This document shows positions 8,338-19,197 of a stretch of DNA of 55,768 nucleotides, piece after piece. Within the stretch, counting starts at the first letter, position 1. Each line of letters starts with the position of its first letter. The DNA is taken from contig JAFUFD010000092.1 of the NCBI GenBank assembly GCA_017470055.1, positions 1 to 55,768 of the forward strand, in the 5' to 3' direction. The notes below the pieces were generated by a model. That model was not told where the DNA came from. It did no database searches and saw only the letters and a list, made by a program, of their open reading frames with translations. The translations under genes and the position numbers were made by a program. Source of the stretch: Prevotella sp. (GTDB lineage: Bacteria; Bacteroidota; Bacteroidia; Bacteroidales; Bacteroidaceae).

Positions 8338-8382
8338 GTGGACCAGCCAGGGCTTGAACCTGGGACCTCCAGATTATGAGTC
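8338..8382. repeat. attL core, 45-bp direct repeat
   Basis: Identical to 19123-19167 and covering the tRNA-Met segment from the anticodon stem to the 3' end. It marks the left junction of the island. Confidence 0.9.
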
Positions 8383-8412
8383 CGGGCAGTGCAACCAACT
8401 TGCAACAGGTCC
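8339..8412 (-). pseudogene. tRNA-Met-like copy at left junction
   Basis: The 3' half (8339-8382) is identical to the tRNA-Met at 19124, with CAT anticodon, perfect T-arm and acceptor strand. The 5' half differs strongly but keeps the same length (74 nt in total), an acceptor strand GGACCTG pairing with CTGGTCC apart from the same U-U mismatch, and an anticodon stem of five pairs. The D-arm is abnormal: GCAA/TTGC leaves a five-base loop and a five-base linker. It is therefore probably not a working tRNA but an attP-borne tRNA mimic or the remnant of an earlier integration. Confidence 0.6.
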
Positions 8413-8550
8413 TATATATGATTATTCCATTCGTTGGAATATCGGCTGCAAAGGTAATTAGATTTTGTGAGACTACCAAACTTTTTTAGTCAAAAGATGC
8501 AAACTCGTGGCAAGCTGAATCATTTTTTATCATTCCTTATCCCGAATCGT

Positions 8551-8570
8551 GTGCAATTTTTGTGCAAGGC
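8551..8570. repeat. Left arm-type repeat of the island
   Basis: GTGCAATTTTTGTGCAAGGC is identical to 19033-19052. It contains two GTGCAA units 11 bp apart. It probably binds the integrase or a helper protein. Between 8413 and 8737 I see no gene. Confidence 0.55.
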
Positions 8571-8751
8571 CATTTTATTCAGCGTCTCATAGTTTTCGTT
8601 GCCCCCATTGCATTTTGGCACATAATTTCCCCACCTTATTATATATAAGCCCCCCCCTTCGCTGACTGTTTTTGTTTGTTTTCGGCTCTTTTTGATGTTT
8701 TTTTGTTAGAGGATTATTTATTCTGCCAAAAAATGAGTAATTTTGCAGCGT

Positions 8752-9062
8752 GTTCTCGTAACACAAGACATATTTGCTCAATTCGTCACTCGAATCACCA
8801 CCTCGAAAAAATGAAAATGAGCAAAGACCTATACCTTAGGAGTATGCGCTTAACGAGCGTAGACTTCCATAAAGGTATAGGGGCTTGTGGTGAGCCTGAG
8901 TGACGTATGGCAGGTCTGCGCTCGCTTCTTGTCAAAAGGGTTAGTGCGGATAAGGTTGAATTAAAACTGAATGCAAATGGCAACAGGTACTAACCAAACA
9001 GGCAGAAAAGCGTTAATTAAGAATAAAGGCTCAATAGCAGGTTTATTCTTAATTAACTGCGA
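8752..9062 (+). ncRNA. Candidate structured RNA at island left end
   Basis: A -7 box TAATTTTG lies at 8738-8745 (no clear -33), giving a start near 8752. Perfect pairings follow: 8784-8791 with 8898-8905 (8 bp), 8795-8801 with 8887-8893 (7 bp), 8828-8837 with 8872-8881 (10 bp), and 8939-8945 with 8989-8995 (7 bp). Bases 8855-8864 inside the inner loop can pair with 8914-8923 outside the outer stem (9 of 10), which would make a pseudoknot. A 16-bp hairpin at 9012-9057 would end it. Frames across the region are short and give no plausible protein. It could be a regulatory RNA, a leader of the 9234 operon, or a DNA-level origin. Confidence 0.5.
9012..9057. terminator. Perfect 16-bp inverted repeat, possible terminator
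   Basis: Bases 9012-9027 pair perfectly with 9042-9057 across a 14-base loop. The stem is AT-rich (GTTAATTAAGAATAAA) and is followed by TGCGATTTTT. It may end the structured RNA or be a protein-binding site. Confidence 0.5.
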
Positions 9063-9064
9063 TT

Positions 9065-9096
9065 TTTGGGGGTCTCACCGATTTTTCGTAACTTTA
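9065..9096 (+). promoter_or_regulatory. Possible promoter for the 9234 operon
   Basis: TTTG at 9065-9068 is followed after 20 bp by TAACTTTA at 9089-9096, one base off the -7 consensus. It would give a leader of about 130 bases. Confidence 0.4.
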
Positions 9097-9233
9097 AGCA
9101 TAGTTGGAGATTTAAGGGTAAAACACCGATGTTTGCAACCCATCACGCTGCAACATCAGTCAAAAACCGTACAAAAGTTATCCAGCGAAATTAGTTAAAG
9201 TATCAAAACGAATACAAACAATTTGAAAAGGTT

Positions 9234-9935
9234 ATGAAGAAAGAGAAGTTATCACCTCAGCAGTTAGAGGAATGGGAACAGAAAAGCGACCCATTTACCA
9301 TTAATGAATTATTGGCTGCATTAGATACCCCTGAGCATAATAACATTGTGCCCAAAAGGAACTTTCAATATAGGCATTTCCCATTTAGCCAAAACAATGT
9401 TTACTTTGGGAATGTCTGTTTGAGCCTGAATCATATAGGACGATTGTTCCCCAAATATGATGAACCAGATTTTTACAGCAGTTGGCGAAGAAGAATTGCC
9501 GACAATATTACTGTGCTAACCGACGAGGGTAAACATCGTTTAGGCAATATTCGCCAAATCAAAGTAGATAAATCGACTGGCATTGCTTCAGCGAAACTCA
9601 ACAACAAGAAAGAGGTTGTTTTGTACTCCAGAAGAAGTAATGACGAATTTGCTCCTATGCAGGTAGAAGATACTTGGCACATCAATGTGGAGAAAACTCC
9701 AGCCATCAGCAAAATAATTGCTGACAATGCGGATAAGATGACTGCCCTAATGAAAGTGGCTCAAATCATTGTCAACAAAGAAGATGAAGAACAAATAGCG
9801 GAGTTGATTCCCGAATTGAAAAGGGAGTTGATTCTCATTGAGAATGTTTTATCAATGGAACTGGTGGATTCCGTTTTCATTGCACAGGAAATGGAAGAAC
9901 TCGACAACACTGGAACCCAAACTTTCGACAACTAA
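9234..9935 (+). CDS. Unknown protein, paralogue of C-terminal half of next gene
   Basis: This 233-residue soluble protein is the first gene of the island's unknown operon. It has no signal peptide or membrane segment. Residues about 65-220 align with the C-terminal half of the next protein through VLTDEGK, then an acidic strand region, PAI.kIi.dnADKm..L.kv, and a final LIPELKrELi.IeN.l.mELvD. The shared unit therefore looks like a domain of about 150 residues with a helical end. The extra N-terminus (MKKEKLSPQQLEEWEQ) is charged and helical. I know no family for it. Confidence 0.75.
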   Translation: MKKEKLSPQQLEEWEQKSDPFTINELLAALDTPEHNNIVPKRNFQYRHFPFSQNNVYFGNVCLSLNHIGRLFPKYDEPDFYSSWRRRIADNITVLTDEGKHRLGNIRQIKVDKSTGIASAKLNNKKEVVLYSRRSNDEFAPMQVEDTWHINVEKTPAISKIIADNADKMTALMKVAQIIVNKEDEEQIAELIPELKRELILIENVLSMELVDSVFIAQEMEELDNTGTQTFDN

Positions 9936-9978
9936 ATTAAGTGTTTCACAACAATATCAATTTAAATGTTTTAAAATT

Positions 9979-11094
9979 ATGAAAGGTTTTGCAGATTACA
10001 TCATTGCTGGATGGGATGAAATCCAGAAAGAAATCGAGCGTGACGTGTTCGAAGTAGATGCTCCATTAGGGGGCAAGATGTTCAAAGAGTGGCTGATACA
10101 AGAGGGACTTGCCGAGCGTACAGCCAGTTCCTATCTCTCTAACATCAAGAGACTGGATAAAGACCTCTTTCCAGAGATTATGGACGGGGACTTTTTCTAT
10201 CTGCTGAAAGAGTATTTGGCAAAGGCGCCAGATAAGGCCATTGAACTCATGGAGCGTGTTCAAAGTGCTATCAGACAGGAGCAGAAAAAGGGGAATCCCG
10301 TAATGCCGTCAAGAGCATTTAACGACTGCCATAGTGCATTTGTGAAGTATATGGAGTTTATCAACCTCCTGATTGACGCTGATATTAGAAAGACTGCTGA
10401 TGCTTCCCAAGGTGATGAAGCCGACGAAGTTCCATTGTTTGAAGATGGTCACGTATCTTTTGACTATGACACATTGTTTTCAAACTTCCGTCTGCGTCTG
10501 GCCACACAAGACCGTTTGACTGGTGGTGATGGCAAGGTGTTCTATCCCATCCGCTTACTATCGAGAATCTTTGCAGTTAATGATGAAGACTGGCAGTTTA
10601 TGGATGATTGGTTTACCCGGTCGCTCAACTATATCGATGTCTTAACAGACGAAGGGAAATTTAAGTTCAGGGATATTGAAACACTTGATATTGACACCCA
10701 GAGTGGAGAAGCATTTGTGATAGTGGATGATGGCTATTCAGCAACTCTGCTGACACGTACTGCCGAGGGTGAAATTGTACCGATGAATGTCAAGAAACTC
10801 CAAGAAATTAGTATCGACCATTCGCCAGCCATTCATAACATATTAGTCAATAAGGCTGATAAACTCCACGGCCTGGCTAAACTGACTGCTATTATCAAGG
10901 ATTACATCAAGGCGAACAAGATAGAACAGCCAGAACGTAGTGCTTCGGTTATTAGCACGGAGATTTTCAAACAGAAAGAAGATGAACTTGTAACACTTAT
11001 TCCAGAGTTGAAACAAGATTTGGTGTTTATTCAGAACAGTATCAATCTTGAACTGATGGACCGCAAGGAGAACACTCGTAAACATGCGAAGTGA
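9979..11094 (+). CDS. Unknown two-domain protein, SAM-like N-terminus
   Basis: From the ATG at 9979 the product has 371 residues; the frame is open earlier, but the 43-base gap and the N-terminus MKGFADYIIAGW favour this start. Residues about 30-125 contain FKEWLIQEGLAERTASSYLSNIKRLD, which resembles the SAM-like core-binding domain of tyrosine recombinases, though no catalytic domain follows. Residues about 185-365 are homologous to the preceding protein (VLTDEGK, SPAIHNILVNKADKL, LIPELKQDLVFIQNS). A DNA-binding domain joined to the shared unknown domain is a reasonable reading. It is probably co-expressed with its neighbour. Confidence 0.75.
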   Translation: MKGFADYIIAGWDEIQKEIERDVFEVDAPLGGKMFKEWLIQEGLAERTASSYLSNIKRLDKDLFPEIMDGDFFYLLKEYLAKAPDKAIELMERVQSAIRQEQKKGNPVMPSRAFNDCHSAFVKYMEFINLLIDADIRKTADASQGDEADEVPLFEDGHVSFDYDTLFSNFRLRLATQDRLTGGDGKVFYPIRLLSRIFAVNDEDWQFMDDWFTRSLNYIDVLTDEGKFKFRDIETLDIDTQSGEAFVIVDDGYSATLLTRTAEGEIVPMNVKKLQEISIDHSPAIHNILVNKADKLHGLAKLTAIIKDYIKANKIEQPERSASVISTEIFKQKEDELVTLIPELKQDLVFIQNSINLELMDRKENTRKHAK

Positions 11095-11180
11095 GAAAGT
11101 TAGGCAGTAATGATATAAGCAAGAATCTTGCTCATATTGTTACTGCTTATTTCTCAGAAATCAATAAAACGGAACAGATT

Positions 11181-11723
11181 ATGAAGAAACTGCTATTGAT
11201 AGTGACCGCTGTTGCTTTTGTCGCATGTGGGAATGGGAGTTCTTCGCAGTATGACATTAAAGTCACAAAAACGGGACGTGTTGAATTAGCATCTGTATGT
11301 GCCCAAACAACGTTCAAGATTGACAATTCTGGAATCACAGGCGACAGGTTTGGAATATATCGAAGTGGGCGATGCGAATTTACTGCTTATATTAATATGG
11401 AAGAAATTACTTGGAATGCCGACTCCATCAAAGGAAGTCTCATCATTTATTGCCCAAAAGTATTATTCAAGGAGCCCAAATATCACTTTGACGAAATGGC
11501 AACGATTTATCAGAATCAAGGGATGCTTCGTGACCGAATAACTCAAACAGAGAAACATGACGTAGAAATGCAGAAACTGAAAGAATTGCAAGATTCTTTA
11601 AGCAATAATGAAGTATTCCGAAATGCTTTGATAGAAAAAGCCCATTTGAGTGCAACGTTGTTACTGCCCAGACTTCTGACTTTTGACAACTCATTATCCA
11701 CTATTGTTAAATTCAAAGATTAG
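11181..11723 (+). CDS. Lipoprotein, possibly DUF4230-like
   Basis: From the ATG at 11181 the product has 180 residues and begins MKKLLLIVTAVAFVACGNGSSS, a lipoprotein signal with Cys at residue 16. The mature part starts with a beta-rich stretch (YDIKVTKTGRVELASVCAQTTFKI). It ends with a long helical segment containing EKHDVEMQKLKELQDSLSNNEVFRNALIEKAHLSATLLL. This order of strands then amphipathic helix recalls DUF4230 proteins and the next gene product. The frame is open from 11091, but the signal peptide fixes the start here. It probably sits in the membrane beside the 11730 product. Confidence 0.7.
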   Translation: MKKLLLIVTAVAFVACGNGSSSQYDIKVTKTGRVELASVCAQTTFKIDNSGITGDRFGIYRSGRCEFTAYINMEEITWNADSIKGSLIIYCPKVLFKEPKYHFDEMATIYQNQGMLRDRITQTEKHDVEMQKLKELQDSLSNNEVFRNALIEKAHLSATLLLPRLLTFDNSLSTIVKFKD

Positions 11724-11729
11724 GAAACG

Positions 11730-12287
11730 ATGAAAACAATTAGGAACAGTATTATTCTGGCTGTTGTCATAATAGCTATAGTGGCAGGAGTGTATTTCAC
11801 AATATCAAATAGAAACGGATATACCACCGAAACACTTTCAACTCAAATCGGAGACTTCCGTGAGATTCTTAAACTTTCTGTATTAGATGTTGATTTGGAA
11901 GATGCCTATATTGAAAAAGTTGAAGGTAATACTTTGATATACAAGATTCCTGCTCATTGTGAGTTTAAATATGATTTGGAGAAAGTGGAAATGAGCCAAA
12001 CCGAATCGGCCATTACCATTACTTTGCCTCTATGTGAAGCGGAAGTAACTTCTAAGGGTGCTCCAACTCTATACTACGAAGAAGAAAAATTACTCTCATT
12101 CTTGCTTGACAACAACGTAAAAGACGAACAGGACAAAAAAGTCTTGGATGATTTGAAAGAAAAGATTCGTGAACGATTGACAGCGGAATATCAAGATTTG
12201 GCTTTTGAACAGGCAAAATCATTGCTAACCTCTTTTTATTCAAATACGGGAAAAGAAATCATTATCAAACAAGCAACACTCCAATAG
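11730..12287 (+). CDS. DUF4230-like membrane-anchored protein
   Basis: The 185-residue product has one N-terminal membrane segment (NSIILAVVIIAIVAGVYFTIS, residues about 5-26) and an outer domain. That domain begins with beta-strand sequence (LIYKIPAHCEFKYDLEKVEM, ITITLPLCEAEV) and ends in a helix with an EQAKSLLTSFYSNTGKEIIIK tail. This fits DUF4230, a family of small anchored proteins of unknown role in Bacteroidota. It starts six bases after the lipoprotein gene, so the two are surely co-translated and may form a pair. Confidence 0.7.
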   Translation: MKTIRNSIILAVVIIAIVAGVYFTISNRNGYTTETLSTQIGDFREILKLSVLDVDLEDAYIEKVEGNTLIYKIPAHCEFKYDLEKVEMSQTESAITITLPLCEAEVTSKGAPTLYYEEEKLLSFLLDNNVKDEQDKKVLDDLKEKIRERLTAEYQDLAFEQAKSLLTSFYSNTGKEIIIKQATLQ

Positions 12288-12297
12288 AACTAATAAT

Positions 12298-12738
12298 ATG
12301 GCCGCAAATATCATTTTAGAAATAACAAATGCAGATGTTCATAACACATTGGATAGAATCTTTGATGTTGGTGCATATATTATCTACTATGGATTCTTTG
12401 TTGTGGTTGGTTTCTACATTTTACGTTTCTTCTATAGGCTTTTTCGAGGACGTAATCCGTTTCGCAGTTCGCCAACAACCCATTCAAAAGGTGAAAGCAA
12501 GAGTTATCGCCACATGGATTTTGGTGACGAAGTAGGTATCATAATAAAAGGAACTTGTTATTGCAATGGAACATATATCATTAATGAACGGTTTGTTTGT
12601 TCAAGACAGGCAAGCAAAAAGTATATTCCATTGAAATCAAGGAAAGAAGCAAAAAGGGCGTGGATTGTTGCAAATGTCCCTGGTGCTGATGTTGAAAATC
12701 ATAGTTTCACGCTCAATGTTGAAATAAAAGAGCTTTAG
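12298..12738 (+). CDS. Small membrane protein of unknown function
   Basis: The 146-residue product has one strong membrane segment near residues 18-40 (AYIIYYGFFVVVGFYILRFFYRLF), followed by Arg-rich sequence, so the C-terminal part is probably cytoplasmic. That part (about 60-146) contains GDEVGIIIKGTCYCNGTYIINERFVCSR and looks like a small beta-rich domain. It starts ten bases after the previous gene and ends the operon. No family is recognised. With the lipoprotein and the anchored protein it gives the operon three envelope parts and two soluble parts. Confidence 0.65.
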   Translation: MAANIILEITNADVHNTLDRIFDVGAYIIYYGFFVVVGFYILRFFYRLFRGRNPFRSSPTTHSKGESKSYRHMDFGDEVGIIIKGTCYCNGTYIINERFVCSRQASKKYIPLKSRKEAKRAWIVANVPGADVENHSFTLNVEIKEL

Positions 12739-12834
12739 AATAAATCATGATAAGCGATAAATGCAGCATTATCAAACGCCTTTTGAAGCAATGCTAAAAA
12801 TTGCTTGAAACTCCCGTTCATCTTATATATAACA

Positions 12835-12861
12835 TATTTCGAGGATATAATCAGTATCAGG
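12835..12861 (+). promoter_or_regulatory. 27-bp motif upstream of integrase, copy 1
   Basis: This matches 14248-14274 at 24 of 27 positions. Both contain GGATATAAT and sit about 27-33 bases before a start codon. TATAAT resembles a classical -10 box rather than the Bacteroidota -7 box. A weak hairpin at 12786-12806 lies before it. Confidence 0.5.
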
Positions 12862-12894
12862 AACAATTAAGTCCCTGTGCTAATCATTCGAAAT

Positions 12895-14118
12895 ATGAAC
12901 AAGAAGCAAAGAGATGGGGTGACAGTTTCTTCCGTACTTGACAAACGGACACCCAACAAAGACGGGAAATTTCCCGTGAAGGTCAAAGTTTATTTCCAGA
13001 AGATACCCAAATACTATTCTACTGGCATTTGTTTAACTGCCGAGGAATGGGAACGGCTGGAGAATAGCAAATCAAGAGACTGCCGAGAAATTAAAGCGGA
13101 AATAGAGAAAAGTTTCTCATTCGTGAAACAGAATGTAGATGAACTGATTGATAGAGGCTCGTTTTCATTCGACACGCTCAATCTGCGCTTAGGCCGTGCA
13201 ACTGGTAGCACATTGAATGATGCTATTCGGGCCAAGATAGAAGAACTACGGAACGAAGAACGCATCGGCACAATGCAATTCTATCAATGCACACTTATGA
13301 TGGTTGAAGAATTTGCAGGCAAACATATTGAATTTAGTGCCATTACTGTCGATTGGCTGAAACGTTGCGAAAGATACTGGCTCAAAACTCGGAAAGTCTC
13401 TACTGTTGGTATGCACTTCCGTAATATACGTGCCTTAATGAATGAAGCAAAGCGAGCAGGGACTATCCGTGAAGCTCAATATCCATTCGGTAAAGATAAA
13501 TTTGAGATAAAGACGGGTGAAAGTATCAAAAAAGGACTGACACAGGAGCAACTAAAGGAGATTTTCAACTATACGAGCGACAATCAGACCACCAATAGGT
13601 ATAAAGACTTGTGGATTTTCATTTATCTATGCAATGGTATCAATCCAACAGATATGCTGAAACTCAAATATTCAGACATTACAGACAATGAAATCCGTTT
13701 TGTCAGACAGAAAACCGAGCGGACAACAAGAAACAGAAAAGAAATCAGAGTATCAGTCACTCCAATAATGGAATCAATCATAAAGGAATGGGGAAACCCA
13801 CCACAATCAGAGAATTATATATTTCCCTATCTGAAAGGTGATGAAACAGCCGAACAACGGAAAGCATTAACCCGTGACGTGGTTAAACGGATTAACAAGC
13901 GGATGAAAAAGATAGGTGAAGAACTTGGAATAGGAAGTATAACAACCTATACGGCCAGACACACATTCGCAACGATTCTTAAACGTAGCGGTGTTGCCAT
14001 TGCATCCATCAGTGAATCATTAGGACATACGGATGTGAGGACAACTGATGCCTATTTGGCAAGTTTTGAAAAGAAAGAACGTGACAAGAATGCCGCTCTA
14101 TTGACTTCATTCTTATAA
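12895..14118 (+). CDS. Tyrosine recombinase (integrase) of the island
   Basis: From the ATG at 12895 the product has 407 residues, the usual length for Bacteroidota integrases; the GTG at 12877 is less likely. Residues about 8-95 fit the arm-binding and SAM-like regions. The catalytic domain starts near 215. The motif YLCNGINPTDMLKLKY stands where other recombinases carry the first Arg, a variation also known in IntDOT-type enzymes. TARHTFAT near 365 supplies the H-R motif and LGHTDVRTTDAYL near 385 the last His and the catalytic Tyr. It should excise and insert the island at the 45-bp tRNA-Met core. Confidence 0.92.
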   Translation: MNKKQRDGVTVSSVLDKRTPNKDGKFPVKVKVYFQKIPKYYSTGICLTAEEWERLENSKSRDCREIKAEIEKSFSFVKQNVDELIDRGSFSFDTLNLRLGRATGSTLNDAIRAKIEELRNEERIGTMQFYQCTLMMVEEFAGKHIEFSAITVDWLKRCERYWLKTRKVSTVGMHFRNIRALMNEAKRAGTIREAQYPFGKDKFEIKTGESIKKGLTQEQLKEIFNYTSDNQTTNRYKDLWIFIYLCNGINPTDMLKLKYSDITDNEIRFVRQKTERTTRNRKEIRVSVTPIMESIIKEWGNPPQSENYIFPYLKGDETAEQRKALTRDVVKRINKRMKKIGEELGIGSITTYTARHTFATILKRSGVAIASISESLGHTDVRTTDAYLASFEKKERDKNAALLTSFL

Positions 14119-14130
14119 GTTCATCATACT

Positions 14131-14190
14131 ACACCACATAAGGGAATGTTCCTGTTTTGATAGGAATGTTCCCTTATGTGGTGTCTTTTC
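14131..14190 (+). terminator. Terminator after integrase
   Basis: A 23-bp stem with two mismatches (14131-14153 with 14162-14184) is followed by CTTTTC. It separates the integrase from the acidic protein gene. Confidence 0.8.
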
Positions 14191-14926: not shown

Positions 14927-15095
14927 CATGCCTCAATATCTGCACTCAGGTACGATGATATAACCTATATTCCACTATACCCACCCGCAAGCACTACACA
15001 AAGGCTCTCCAGAACACGCCTACGGTCTCCCGTATCGCATCTACGCCCCAACCCCTTGCCCCACCTAAGACGCAAGAGAAATAAAGCGATATGGT

Positions 15096-15230
15096 TAAAA
15101 TATGGAGTGAGAAAAGTGAAGAAAGTGATTTTTTTAATAGAACTTTTTTAAATCTATTCTACTCCTTATAGCATAAAGAATAATAGAGATTTATTATTCA
15201 CTTTCTTCACTTTTCTCACCCCATATTTTA
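15096..15230. repeat. 33-bp inverted repeat around AT-rich core
   Basis: Arms 15096-15128 and 15198-15230 are reverse complements with one mismatch and contain AGTGA-type repeats (GTGAGAAAAGTGAAGAAAGTGA pattern split over the arm). The 69-bp centre is very AT-rich. The right arm reaches the stop codon of the repressor-like gene. The length and AT-rich centre suggest a replication origin or a binding site for the island's helicase and primase rather than a terminator. Confidence 0.75.
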
Positions 15231-15857
15231 TAATGTTTTGTCTTTCTCGTCGTCATAGAAAGTAATGAGGTGAATAACAGGAACAGACGAGCGAGAGTCT
15301 TGCTCTACCTCAATGTCTTTAAGCATAATAATCTCACCTTCTGTCATTAGTGTATTAAAACTTTTGGTAACTTCAAATTTAAAATCGTCAATAGCTTTTA
15401 ATCCAATATATTTCTCGTATGTGCCAAAGTATTTAATTTCCCCTTTGTCCCAACACATGGAAATTTCTTTTGGATTAGAAAAGACTATTGGCTTGTTGTT
15501 GCCACTGTCAATAGATACTATGCCATTGTTATATTTATAGACAAAATCCCCCCAATTTGGAAAACCTATTGCTTGTGCTATAAGGGATAGTTTTCCTACG
15601 TCTGGCGTAATGTCTTTATCGCCGTCCTTGACACCCCAATACCGTCTTAATGTGTCGGGACTAATGGTTTCTTTCTGCTGTATTGCTTTGCCGTTATACT
15701 GCTTTTCTGGATAGTTTTCTTCGCTACGCTTTTTGATATATTCGGCTAAATCTTGAAAACCAGTCCTCCAACTGACATCAATTCCAGAAACATTTAATAT
15801 CTGGATTTTCAAATGCTCAAACGCATTTCTGTCTATTTGCTTTTTAATGTTTGCCAT
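15228..15857 (-). CDS. Repressor-like regulator of the island
   Basis: From the ATG at 15857 the product has 209 residues; an upstream ATG at 15935 would overlap the divergent control region. Residues about 60-110 contain ISPDTLRRYWGVKDGDKDITPDVGKLSLIAQAIGFPNWGDFV. This resembles an N-terminal HTH-like region often seen in Bacteroidota mobile elements (TLRRLWGY followed by LA..IGY.nW..F). The C-terminal half is beta-rich and unknown. It diverges from the excisionase-helicase-primase operon across 10-bp phased repeats, the usual position of a lysogeny-type repressor. A box TAATTTTG (complement of 15876-15883) fits its promoter. Confidence 0.65.
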   Translation of the reverse strand: MANIKKQIDRNAFEHLKIQILNVSGIDVSWRTGFQDLAEYIKKRSEENYPEKQYNGKAIQQKETISPDTLRRYWGVKDGDKDITPDVGKLSLIAQAIGFPNWGDFVYKYNNGIVSIDSGNNKPIVFSNPKEISMCWDKGEIKYFGTYEKYIGLKAIDDFKFEVTKSFNTLMTEGEIIMLKDIEVEQDSRSSVPVIHLITFYDDEKDKTL

Positions 15858-19122: not shown

Positions 19123-19167
19123 GTGGACCAGCCAGGGCTTGAACCTGGGACCTCCAGATTATGAGTC
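19123..19167. repeat. attR core, 45-bp direct repeat
   Basis: Identical to 8338-8382; part of the intact tRNA-Met gene and the right junction of the island. Confidence 0.9.
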
Positions 19168-19197
19168 TGTTGCTCTAACCAACTGAGCTACAAGTCC
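19124..19197 (-). tRNA. tRNA-Met (CAT)
   Basis: A 74-nt cloverleaf on the minus strand. The acceptor is GGACTTG with CTGGTCC (one U-U), the D-arm GCTC/GAGC, the anticodon loop CTCATAA, and the T-arm CCAGG-TTCAAGC-CCTGG. CCA is not fully encoded. The 3' half is supplied by the island's att core, so the gene is rebuilt rather than destroyed by integration. A CAT anticodon could also belong to tRNA-Ile with modified C; Met is my best reading. Confidence 0.9.

Follow-up and report, generated by a model that had tools for sequence, protein, structure and literature searches.

Prevotella is a major genus of the mouth, gut and rumen, and to our knowledge few regulatory RNAs have been described in it. 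Structured RNAs from the same phylum include Bacteroidales-1 (RF01693), Bacteroid-trp (RF01692) and Bacteroides-1 (RF01694), as given in the part of the source consulted (PMC2864571). The HMP2_ series of human-microbiome candidates consists of predicted RNAs, some confined to Prevotella; the portion of that source compared here, which leaves aside the supplementary list, names two Prevotella candidates that lie mostly near uvrC, and identity with an entry is possible (PMC8040213). Here we describe a conserved RNA in the 55,768-nt contig JAFUFD010000092.1 of Prevotella sp. (assembly GCA_017470055.1), the whole of which is called the window. It lies in an island, ahead of five open reading frames (ORFs) termed proteins P1-P5; the names helices P1-P4 refer to parts of the RNA. 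Its closest counterparts in kind are riboswitch and attenuator leaders, with which it appears to share a structured, probably pseudoknotted 5′ leader, a putative mutually exclusive second helix, a T-rich tract and a promoter-like site just upstream; unlike known riboswitch leaders, it has no known ligand, its targets lack a common pathway and no Rfam family falls on its core. We consider it fairly probable that the two gene blocks of the island (P1-P2 and P3-P5) are preceded, in this widespread RNA with its own promoter, by a cis-acting 5′ leader working by attenuation.

Conservation, structure and placement of the RNA

The conserved noncoding region ahead of protein P1 was absent from the earlier note on this DNA, which had read the five genes as one operon of unknown function. 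Alignment of the window with locus L023 (Prevotella sp. HAN022), home of the nearest relative of protein P2 (76% identity), revealed that some 570 bp of noncoding DNA 5′ of proteins P1 and P2 are conserved and carry compensatory changes; in L023 the RNA also stands upstream of protein P2, and protein P1 has shrunk to a 33-codon remnant (by eye). A 75-aa ORF in this region (8971-9198) was rejected as coding, since 27 of the 32 codons that differ from L023 are non-synonymous and the differences by codon position number 12, 18 and 18 (171 bases compared).

A blastn search with positions 8650-9235, scoring the two best places per genome, gave matches in 128 of the 398 genus genomes searched; many are weak, and a large share of the weaker ones cover only the promoter side. 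A covariance model (R1), built from 11 copies, matched 53 of 110 genus genomes of at least 90% completeness, with 1-8 matches in each. Six of 198 genomes of the order were positive, one being the source genome itself and one (G364, 25.6 bits) doubtful, which leaves four convincing other Bacteroidales; a second model, R2, did not find the RNA in any of 94 further genomes from the phylum. As at most 28 (genus), 16 (order) or 33 (phylum) candidates per genome were scored under strict filters, these counts are minimum values. The copies have diverged, with a median pairwise identity of 0.64, and the two in the source genome (G000:C16 and G000:C23) are 67% identical. The G000:C23 copy (L093, G000:C23:72279-72428) is followed, 223 nt on, by an ORF of 224 aa that resembles a sigma factor by eye.

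With cmscan, none of the 4227 families of Rfam 15 matched the RNA core above its gathering cut-off in the window or at 20 further loci, the three families of the phylum named above included, and permissive scans of the island and L023 likewise gave none. A word search of the full text of PMC11109978 returned neither "Prevotella" nor "Bacteroid", and no literature pairing "riboswitch candidate" with "Prevotella" was found; supplementary tables lay outside the scope of this search, so an earlier unnamed prediction is possible. Judged from sequence, the folded RNA is of a kind not in Rfam, and in related bacteria it precedes numerous genes that have no kinship with one another and are mostly cell-surface genes. 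A phage or plasmid origin was rejected, as blastn found nothing in plasmids and viral contigs lack exact matches to the core patterns of one variant; a phage collection gave one 33-nt match to the RNA (E 5e-3).

Structure was assessed on alignment A8, fitted to the covariance model, whose 60 rows include two weak and probably false ones that were kept in the pairing counts. In A8, 94.9% of 2028 cells are paired, against 67.8% after shuffling (none of 500 shuffles reached the observed value, in a test that ignores kinship) and 28-49% in slid controls. Two-sided changes occur at all 36 of the 36 nested modelled pairs, and RNAalifold on the same alignment predicts 35 pairs, 32 of them with two-sided changes. 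With the pseudoknot and a GGC/GCC helix around the 3′ strand of helix P2 added, 95.2% of cells are paired. The UUGCUC/GAGCA pseudoknot is probable: 98.2% of its cells are paired, mostly as invariant bases with two-sided change in single copies, and both it and the GGC/GCC helix have far less covariation support than helices P1-P3. The unpaired motifs CGAAU, CUCG and CCAUA are strongly conserved. G-U cells number 107 against 26 A-C cells, an excess that favours the plus strand as the RNA strand.

Surroundings were compared for 54 copies from 54 of 59 source loci; L092 (about 25 bits, misaligned) and the near-duplicates L036, L044, L077 and L083 were left out, and a second match in L053 (25.3 bits) was excluded by a stricter limit. 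The promoter consensus of Bacteroidota is of the TAnnTTT[GA] type, and 50 of the 54 copies have such a site in the 80 nt upstream, 39 at a distance of 29-35 nt; among background windows it occurs in 18 of 320. Within 520 nt, 47 of the 54 copies are followed by a first ORF that runs in the same direction and encodes at least 80 aa, and in 36 of these 47 it starts 60-130 nt after the core. The first downstream protein has a hydrophobic N-terminus in 37 of 47 cases. Among the remaining ORFs in these loci the figure is 33 of 101 (p 1.7e-7), a crude comparison with unfiltered background ORFs. Pfam was run on 54 downstream proteins, taken as the longest ORF starting within 520 nt and in some loci not the first gene; it names 19 families, none dominant (LRR_5 four times, RDD twice, C10 peptidase once). 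PADLOC viperin models match one of the 54, and a radical SAM domain is found in one. The downstream genes appear unrelated and mainly of envelope type, and the RNA itself is, by its structure and its position in the sequence, a conserved structured RNA in 5′ leader position. What sequence analysis shows is that the structure is conserved, where the promoter-like site lies, how far off the start codons are and that the alternative helix considered below covaries.

The alternative helix and rival readings of the RNA

Immediately 3′ of the core, GUCUGCGC or a variant can form at least six Watson-Crick pairs with the 3′ strand of helix P4 in 57 of 58 copies (helix T). Own partners give 7.86 Watson-Crick pairs versus 7.27 for swapped partners (standard deviation 0.11, maximum 7.59 of 200), in a test from which kinship was not removed and two weak rows were left out. 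The 12 nt after the helix T arm are 63% T, against 28% further on, and hold at least 7 T in 48 of 54 copies. Helix T cannot form together with helix P4, and a T-rich tract comes after it; these features suggest an attenuator or a riboswitch-like leader. The fold with helices P1-P4 is the stabler one in 48 of 54 copies, by a median of 9.1 kcal/mol (pseudoknots not counted).

From these features we infer the transcription start, the direction of the switch, its signal and its putative action on proteins P1-P5 in the window, as follows. The compact fold of helices P1-P4, with the probable pseudoknot, would occupy the 3′ strand of helix P4 and RNA polymerase would pass. A signal (ligand, protein or ion) would open helix P4, whose 3′ strand could then pair with the downstream GUCUGCGC; helix T and the T-rich tract would then stop transcription. 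Tentatively, the RNA may form a new class of riboswitch, present in Prevotella and in a small number of further Bacteroidales. It would sense a single internal signal, such as a second messenger or a metabolite of envelope stress, and set the expression of a variable surface and envelope regulon, and the island would have acquired its copy so that the cargo answers to that signal too; we regard this as possible rather than probable. Strong covariation, the promoter-like site of its own, the several copies in some genomes and the mostly envelope-type targets would suggest that a single common signal underlies a variable surface repertoire.

Several observations weigh against attenuation by such a leader. 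Only 21 of 54 copies have a fold with helices P1-P4 that lies no more than 0.5 kcal/mol above the minimum, and none has a T fold that does so. As a terminator hairpin, helix T has an unusual 45-nt loop. In the window copy hardly any energy separates the two folds (-59.6 and -59.2 kcal/mol), the minimum-energy fold contains helix T for positions 8744-8936 and helices P1-P4 for 8744-9073, and the T tail is weak, with 6 T in 12. In the plain MAFFT alignment A6, 25-36 of the 36 pairs hold per sequence and helix P3 is misaligned; RNAalifold on a plain alignment of 28 copies does not predict helix P3, so the near-perfect count for this helix rests on the fitted A8. Seven of the 54 copies lack a qualifying first ORF (five have one under a looser rule and two lie at contig ends), and Pfam shows no shared pathway among the 54 downstream proteins. 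The RNA is also absent at the loci of other protein P2 relatives, and the idea that it is a fixed partner of protein P2 was rejected on that ground. Finally, protein P1 starts 324 nt after the core, not the typical distance of about 85 nt, and the gap contains a palindrome, a T run and a second promoter-like site (Table 1), so proteins P1-P5 may have their own promoter. The RNA may end at the palindrome, which a terminator scan did not flag, or proteins P1-P2 may be read from both promoters, the second being TAACTTTA. The link of the RNA to proteins P1-P5 in the window thus appears less typical than elsewhere.

The same set of diverse, mainly envelope-type targets, which would resemble a stress or surface regulon, could also belong to a leader bound by a protein, such as a general RNA-binding or envelope-stress regulator, rather than to a ligand-binding riboswitch. 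We hold this reading to be doubtful: the probable pseudoknot and the conserved unpaired CGAAU, CUCG and CCAUA recall compact ligand-binding folds, and no protein candidate turned up, none having been sought. An independent small RNA that acts in trans and ends at helix T or at the palindrome (9012-9067), with incidental variable neighbours, is an unlikely reading. The RNA's own promoter-like site, the T-rich tract after helix T, the palindrome followed by TTTTT in the window and the unrelated neighbouring genes would agree with such a transcript, whereas a leader better explains the narrow spacing to the start codon, the co-direction of the following ORF (47 of 54) and the presence of more than one copy in a genome. 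A mobile structured DNA repeat spreading in the genus, like a miniature inverted-repeat transposable element, is barely credible, for the patchy presence (0-8 matches per genome) and the island-borne copy here that would suit it are set against diverged copies, compensatory changes, the G-U bias, conserved promoter and gene spacing and the viral and plasmid searches above.

The tRNA-Met island and its two probable gene blocks

The element carrying this copy is a site-specific integrative island, with an integrase and flanking direct repeats at a tRNA gene. Its borders are 45-bp perfect direct repeats (100% identical), of which the right one lies in the tRNA-Met gene and the left one itself gives a weaker tRNA-Met call (38 bits). 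Besides the integrase, the island encodes an excisionase-like helix-turn-helix protein, a D5/VapE-like helicase-primase and a BT4734/PrimPol-like protein; proteins P1-P5 occupy a cargo position, as had been proposed.

Table 1. Features of the island and its upstream RNA in the window.
Feature	Position	Strand	Basis
Left 45-bp direct repeat (att-like)	8338..8382	.	Identity with 19123-19167
Bacteroidota-type promoter element TAATTTTG (general consensus)	8738..8745	+	Sequence
Structured RNA core	8767..8910	+	Covariance model R1, 146.4 bits (window copy is a model member); covariation
Candidate pseudoknot	8775-8779/8819-8823, within 8767..8910	+	Covariance model, covariation
Helix P1	8784-8791/8898-8905, within 8767..8910	+	Covariance model, covariation
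Helix P2	8795-8801/8887-8893, within 8767..8910	+	Covariance model, covariation
Helix P3	8828-8837/8872-8881, within 8767..8910	+	Covariance model, covariation
Helix P4	8839-8850/8856-8867, within 8767..8910	+	Covariance model, covariation
Helix T 3′ strand 8912-8922 (pairs with 8856-8866) and pyrimidine-rich tail, moderately T-rich here	8912..8931	+	Folding, covariation
Second hairpin GGTTAGT/ACTAACC	8939..8995	+	Similar pattern in 23/54 copies, loose text match
Palindrome, two 16-nt arms, TTTTT after 5 nt; possible terminator of RNA transcript	9012..9067	+	Arms conserved in L023
Second promoter-like element TAACTTTA (putative)	9089..9096	+	Conserved in L023 (alignment)
Protein P1, 233 aa, paralogue of protein P2 C-terminal part	9234..9935	+	ORF; BLASTP
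Protein P2, 371 aa, helical N-terminus and shared C-terminal domain	9979..11094	+	ORF, sequence comparison
Strong hairpin between proteins P2 and P3, -32.5 kcal/mol	11092..11156	+	Folding; inner part flagged terminator-like, at chance rate
Protein P3, DUF4230 lipoprotein	11181..11723	+	Pfam E 1.9e-7; lipobox by eye
Protein P4, membrane-anchored, DUF4230-like	11730..12287	+	Weak similarity; gene order like chromosomal pairs
Protein P5, small membrane protein with basic tail, no family	12298..12738	+	ORF; Pfam, PADLOC, NCBIfam, PHROGs searches
Island tyrosine integrase	12895..14118	+	Pfam E 6.1e-18
tRNA-Met gene, contains right repeat 19123-19167	19123..19197	-	ARAGORN; Rfam 65.7 bits

The five plus-strand ORFs do run from 9234 to 12738, and the tight spacing described for them holds except at the joint of proteins P2 and P3, where 86 nt contain the strong hairpin. 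A general terminator scan of 8400-12950 returned two sites against 3.1 expected, one of them inside this hairpin. In a tblastn search of proteins P1-P5 around protein P2-family genes (11 loci, amounting to nine distinct places with limited flanks; in L023 only 189 bp after the protein P2 gene), no relative of proteins P3, P4 or P5 was found, only relatives of protein P2 or P1, and the profile-recruited L026 and L027 gave no match at all. Neighbours of protein P2 relatives differ elsewhere, a small downstream protein occurring in L009, L010 and L022 and a 115-aa upstream protein in L024-L026. Protein P2 thus occurs in unrelated contexts, recurrence of the five genes as a unit was not found in these places, and hairpins follow protein P2 both in the window and in L023 (in the latter -27.5 kcal/mol, with a T run, directly 3′ of the gene). 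The idea of a single system accordingly finds no support; the five genes are probably two separate blocks, and in place of an unknown five-gene defence operon there would be two blocks, of which one is of known kind, along with a question of regulation.

A role as one anti-phage or satellite defence system is very improbable. PADLOC-DB 2.0.0 (2023 release) has no family that matches any of proteins P1-P5 at E up to 1, so the defence reading stands on the cargo position adjoining the integrase; a protein P2 relative in L025 does lie near helicase- and HipA-like genes (by eye). Against it, the five genes were never together elsewhere in the loci searched, the hairpin 3′ of protein P2 in L023 is terminator-like, and close relatives were found neither in viral contigs (proteins P2, P4 and P5) nor in phage and plasmid records (protein P2). 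Function remains unassigned, as the earlier note had it: searches of all five proteins name only DUF4230 (for protein P3 and, as probable, P4), and Pfam, PADLOC, NCBIfam and PHROGs, searched with ten island proteins, gave no function for proteins P1, P2, P4 or P5.

Proteins P3-P4 resemble the tandem pairs of DUF4230 (PF14014), a family mentioned, in the part of the source consulted, in connection with a biofilm phenotype in Streptococcus mutans (PMC13041782). Of 60 genus genomes, 52 have matches to the family, usually two side by side, and the 14 control genomes have none; in three chromosomal pairs (L126, from the source genome, L127 and L128) the first gene is lipoprotein-like and the second membrane-anchored (by eye), the order of P3-P4. 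The pair of the source genome lies at L126 3285-4587 (G000:C35). Both island proteins had been called DUF4230-like; protein P3 passes the Pfam cut-off (31.7 bits against 27), whereas P4, missed by Pfam, shows only a weak similarity in hhalign (E 0.0012, probability 19%). Protein P4 has an N-terminal hydrophobic helix (by eye; residues 2-27 in a low-confidence model, pLDDT 47 when modelled alone), and proteins P3 and P4 do not match each other. On the weak similarity of P4 and the shared gene order and anchoring, P3-P4 are filed as a probable diverged island copy of the tandem pair; they differ from the chromosomal pairs in their far divergence, their place on an island and the attached protein P5. 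No match outside the source genome was found for protein P3 in 301 family genomes (single-sequence search) or for P4 in 140 genus genomes. Protein P5, searched in viral contigs and the 11 protein P2-family loci, has, on reading of its sequence, a hydrophobic segment and the basic tail described earlier.

Proteins P1 and P2 and minor observations

Proteins P1 and P2, both soluble, are paralogues and belong to a rare family from Bacteroidales. The paralogy first suggested by shared VLTDEGK and LIPELK motifs is borne out by BLASTP (E 8e-25, 30% identity over 177 residues). The SAM-like N-terminus ascribed to protein P2 is less secure: its helical N-terminus gives a weak local match to the phage integrase domain Phage_int_SAM_5 (PF13102) over 25 residues, below cut-off (E 0.11; 13.4 bits against 22.3), and, unlike a phage integrase, protein P2 has no matched integrase catalytic domain. 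An AlphaFold2 model of protein P2 from five sequences has a mean pLDDT of 62; Foldseek found no PDB match to it at E <=0.001 (best 0.53, Tn1549 integrase), and a search of solved-structure sequences with the protein P2 alignment and proteins P3 and P4 gave only E 0.3 or worse.

Relatives of protein P2 are found in 3 of 301 family genomes and 5 of 393 order genomes (source genome included in both), one of the latter (G611) matching the N-terminus only. Five loci in named records hold relatives, L019 and L021 being contigs of G178 and G051; one relative is in NZ_KB899211.1 of Hoylesella loescheii, a species formerly placed in Prevotella. The small protein 3′ of larger protein P2 relatives (L009 10971-11441; L010 7909-8340; L022 9555-10124) recalls by eye what we take to be an FtsZ C-terminal domain. 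In other families, a 115-116-aa protein starting MKK/MRK..IFL..RWVKF stands 5′ of protein P2 relatives (L024 6786-7136; L025 6847-7194; L026 526-873) and is a candidate partner of protein P2 there. In L027 (5826-6680), a domain of the protein P2 N-terminal type precedes an HNH-like region (by eye), which suggests a DNA-targeting role of that domain. L025 (1-12001) has its protein P2 relative among DUF1998-type helicase, UvrD-like and HipA/HipB lookalikes (by eye), as in defence islands.

Two further stretches of the island were noted. Directly after the integrase stop, a hairpin-like stretch (14124-14190) is matched by two microRNA models below cut-off. Between an acidic-protein gene and a minus-strand gene, 15095-15231 is matched on both strands by plant microRNA models, likewise below cut-off, and is probably a long hairpin.

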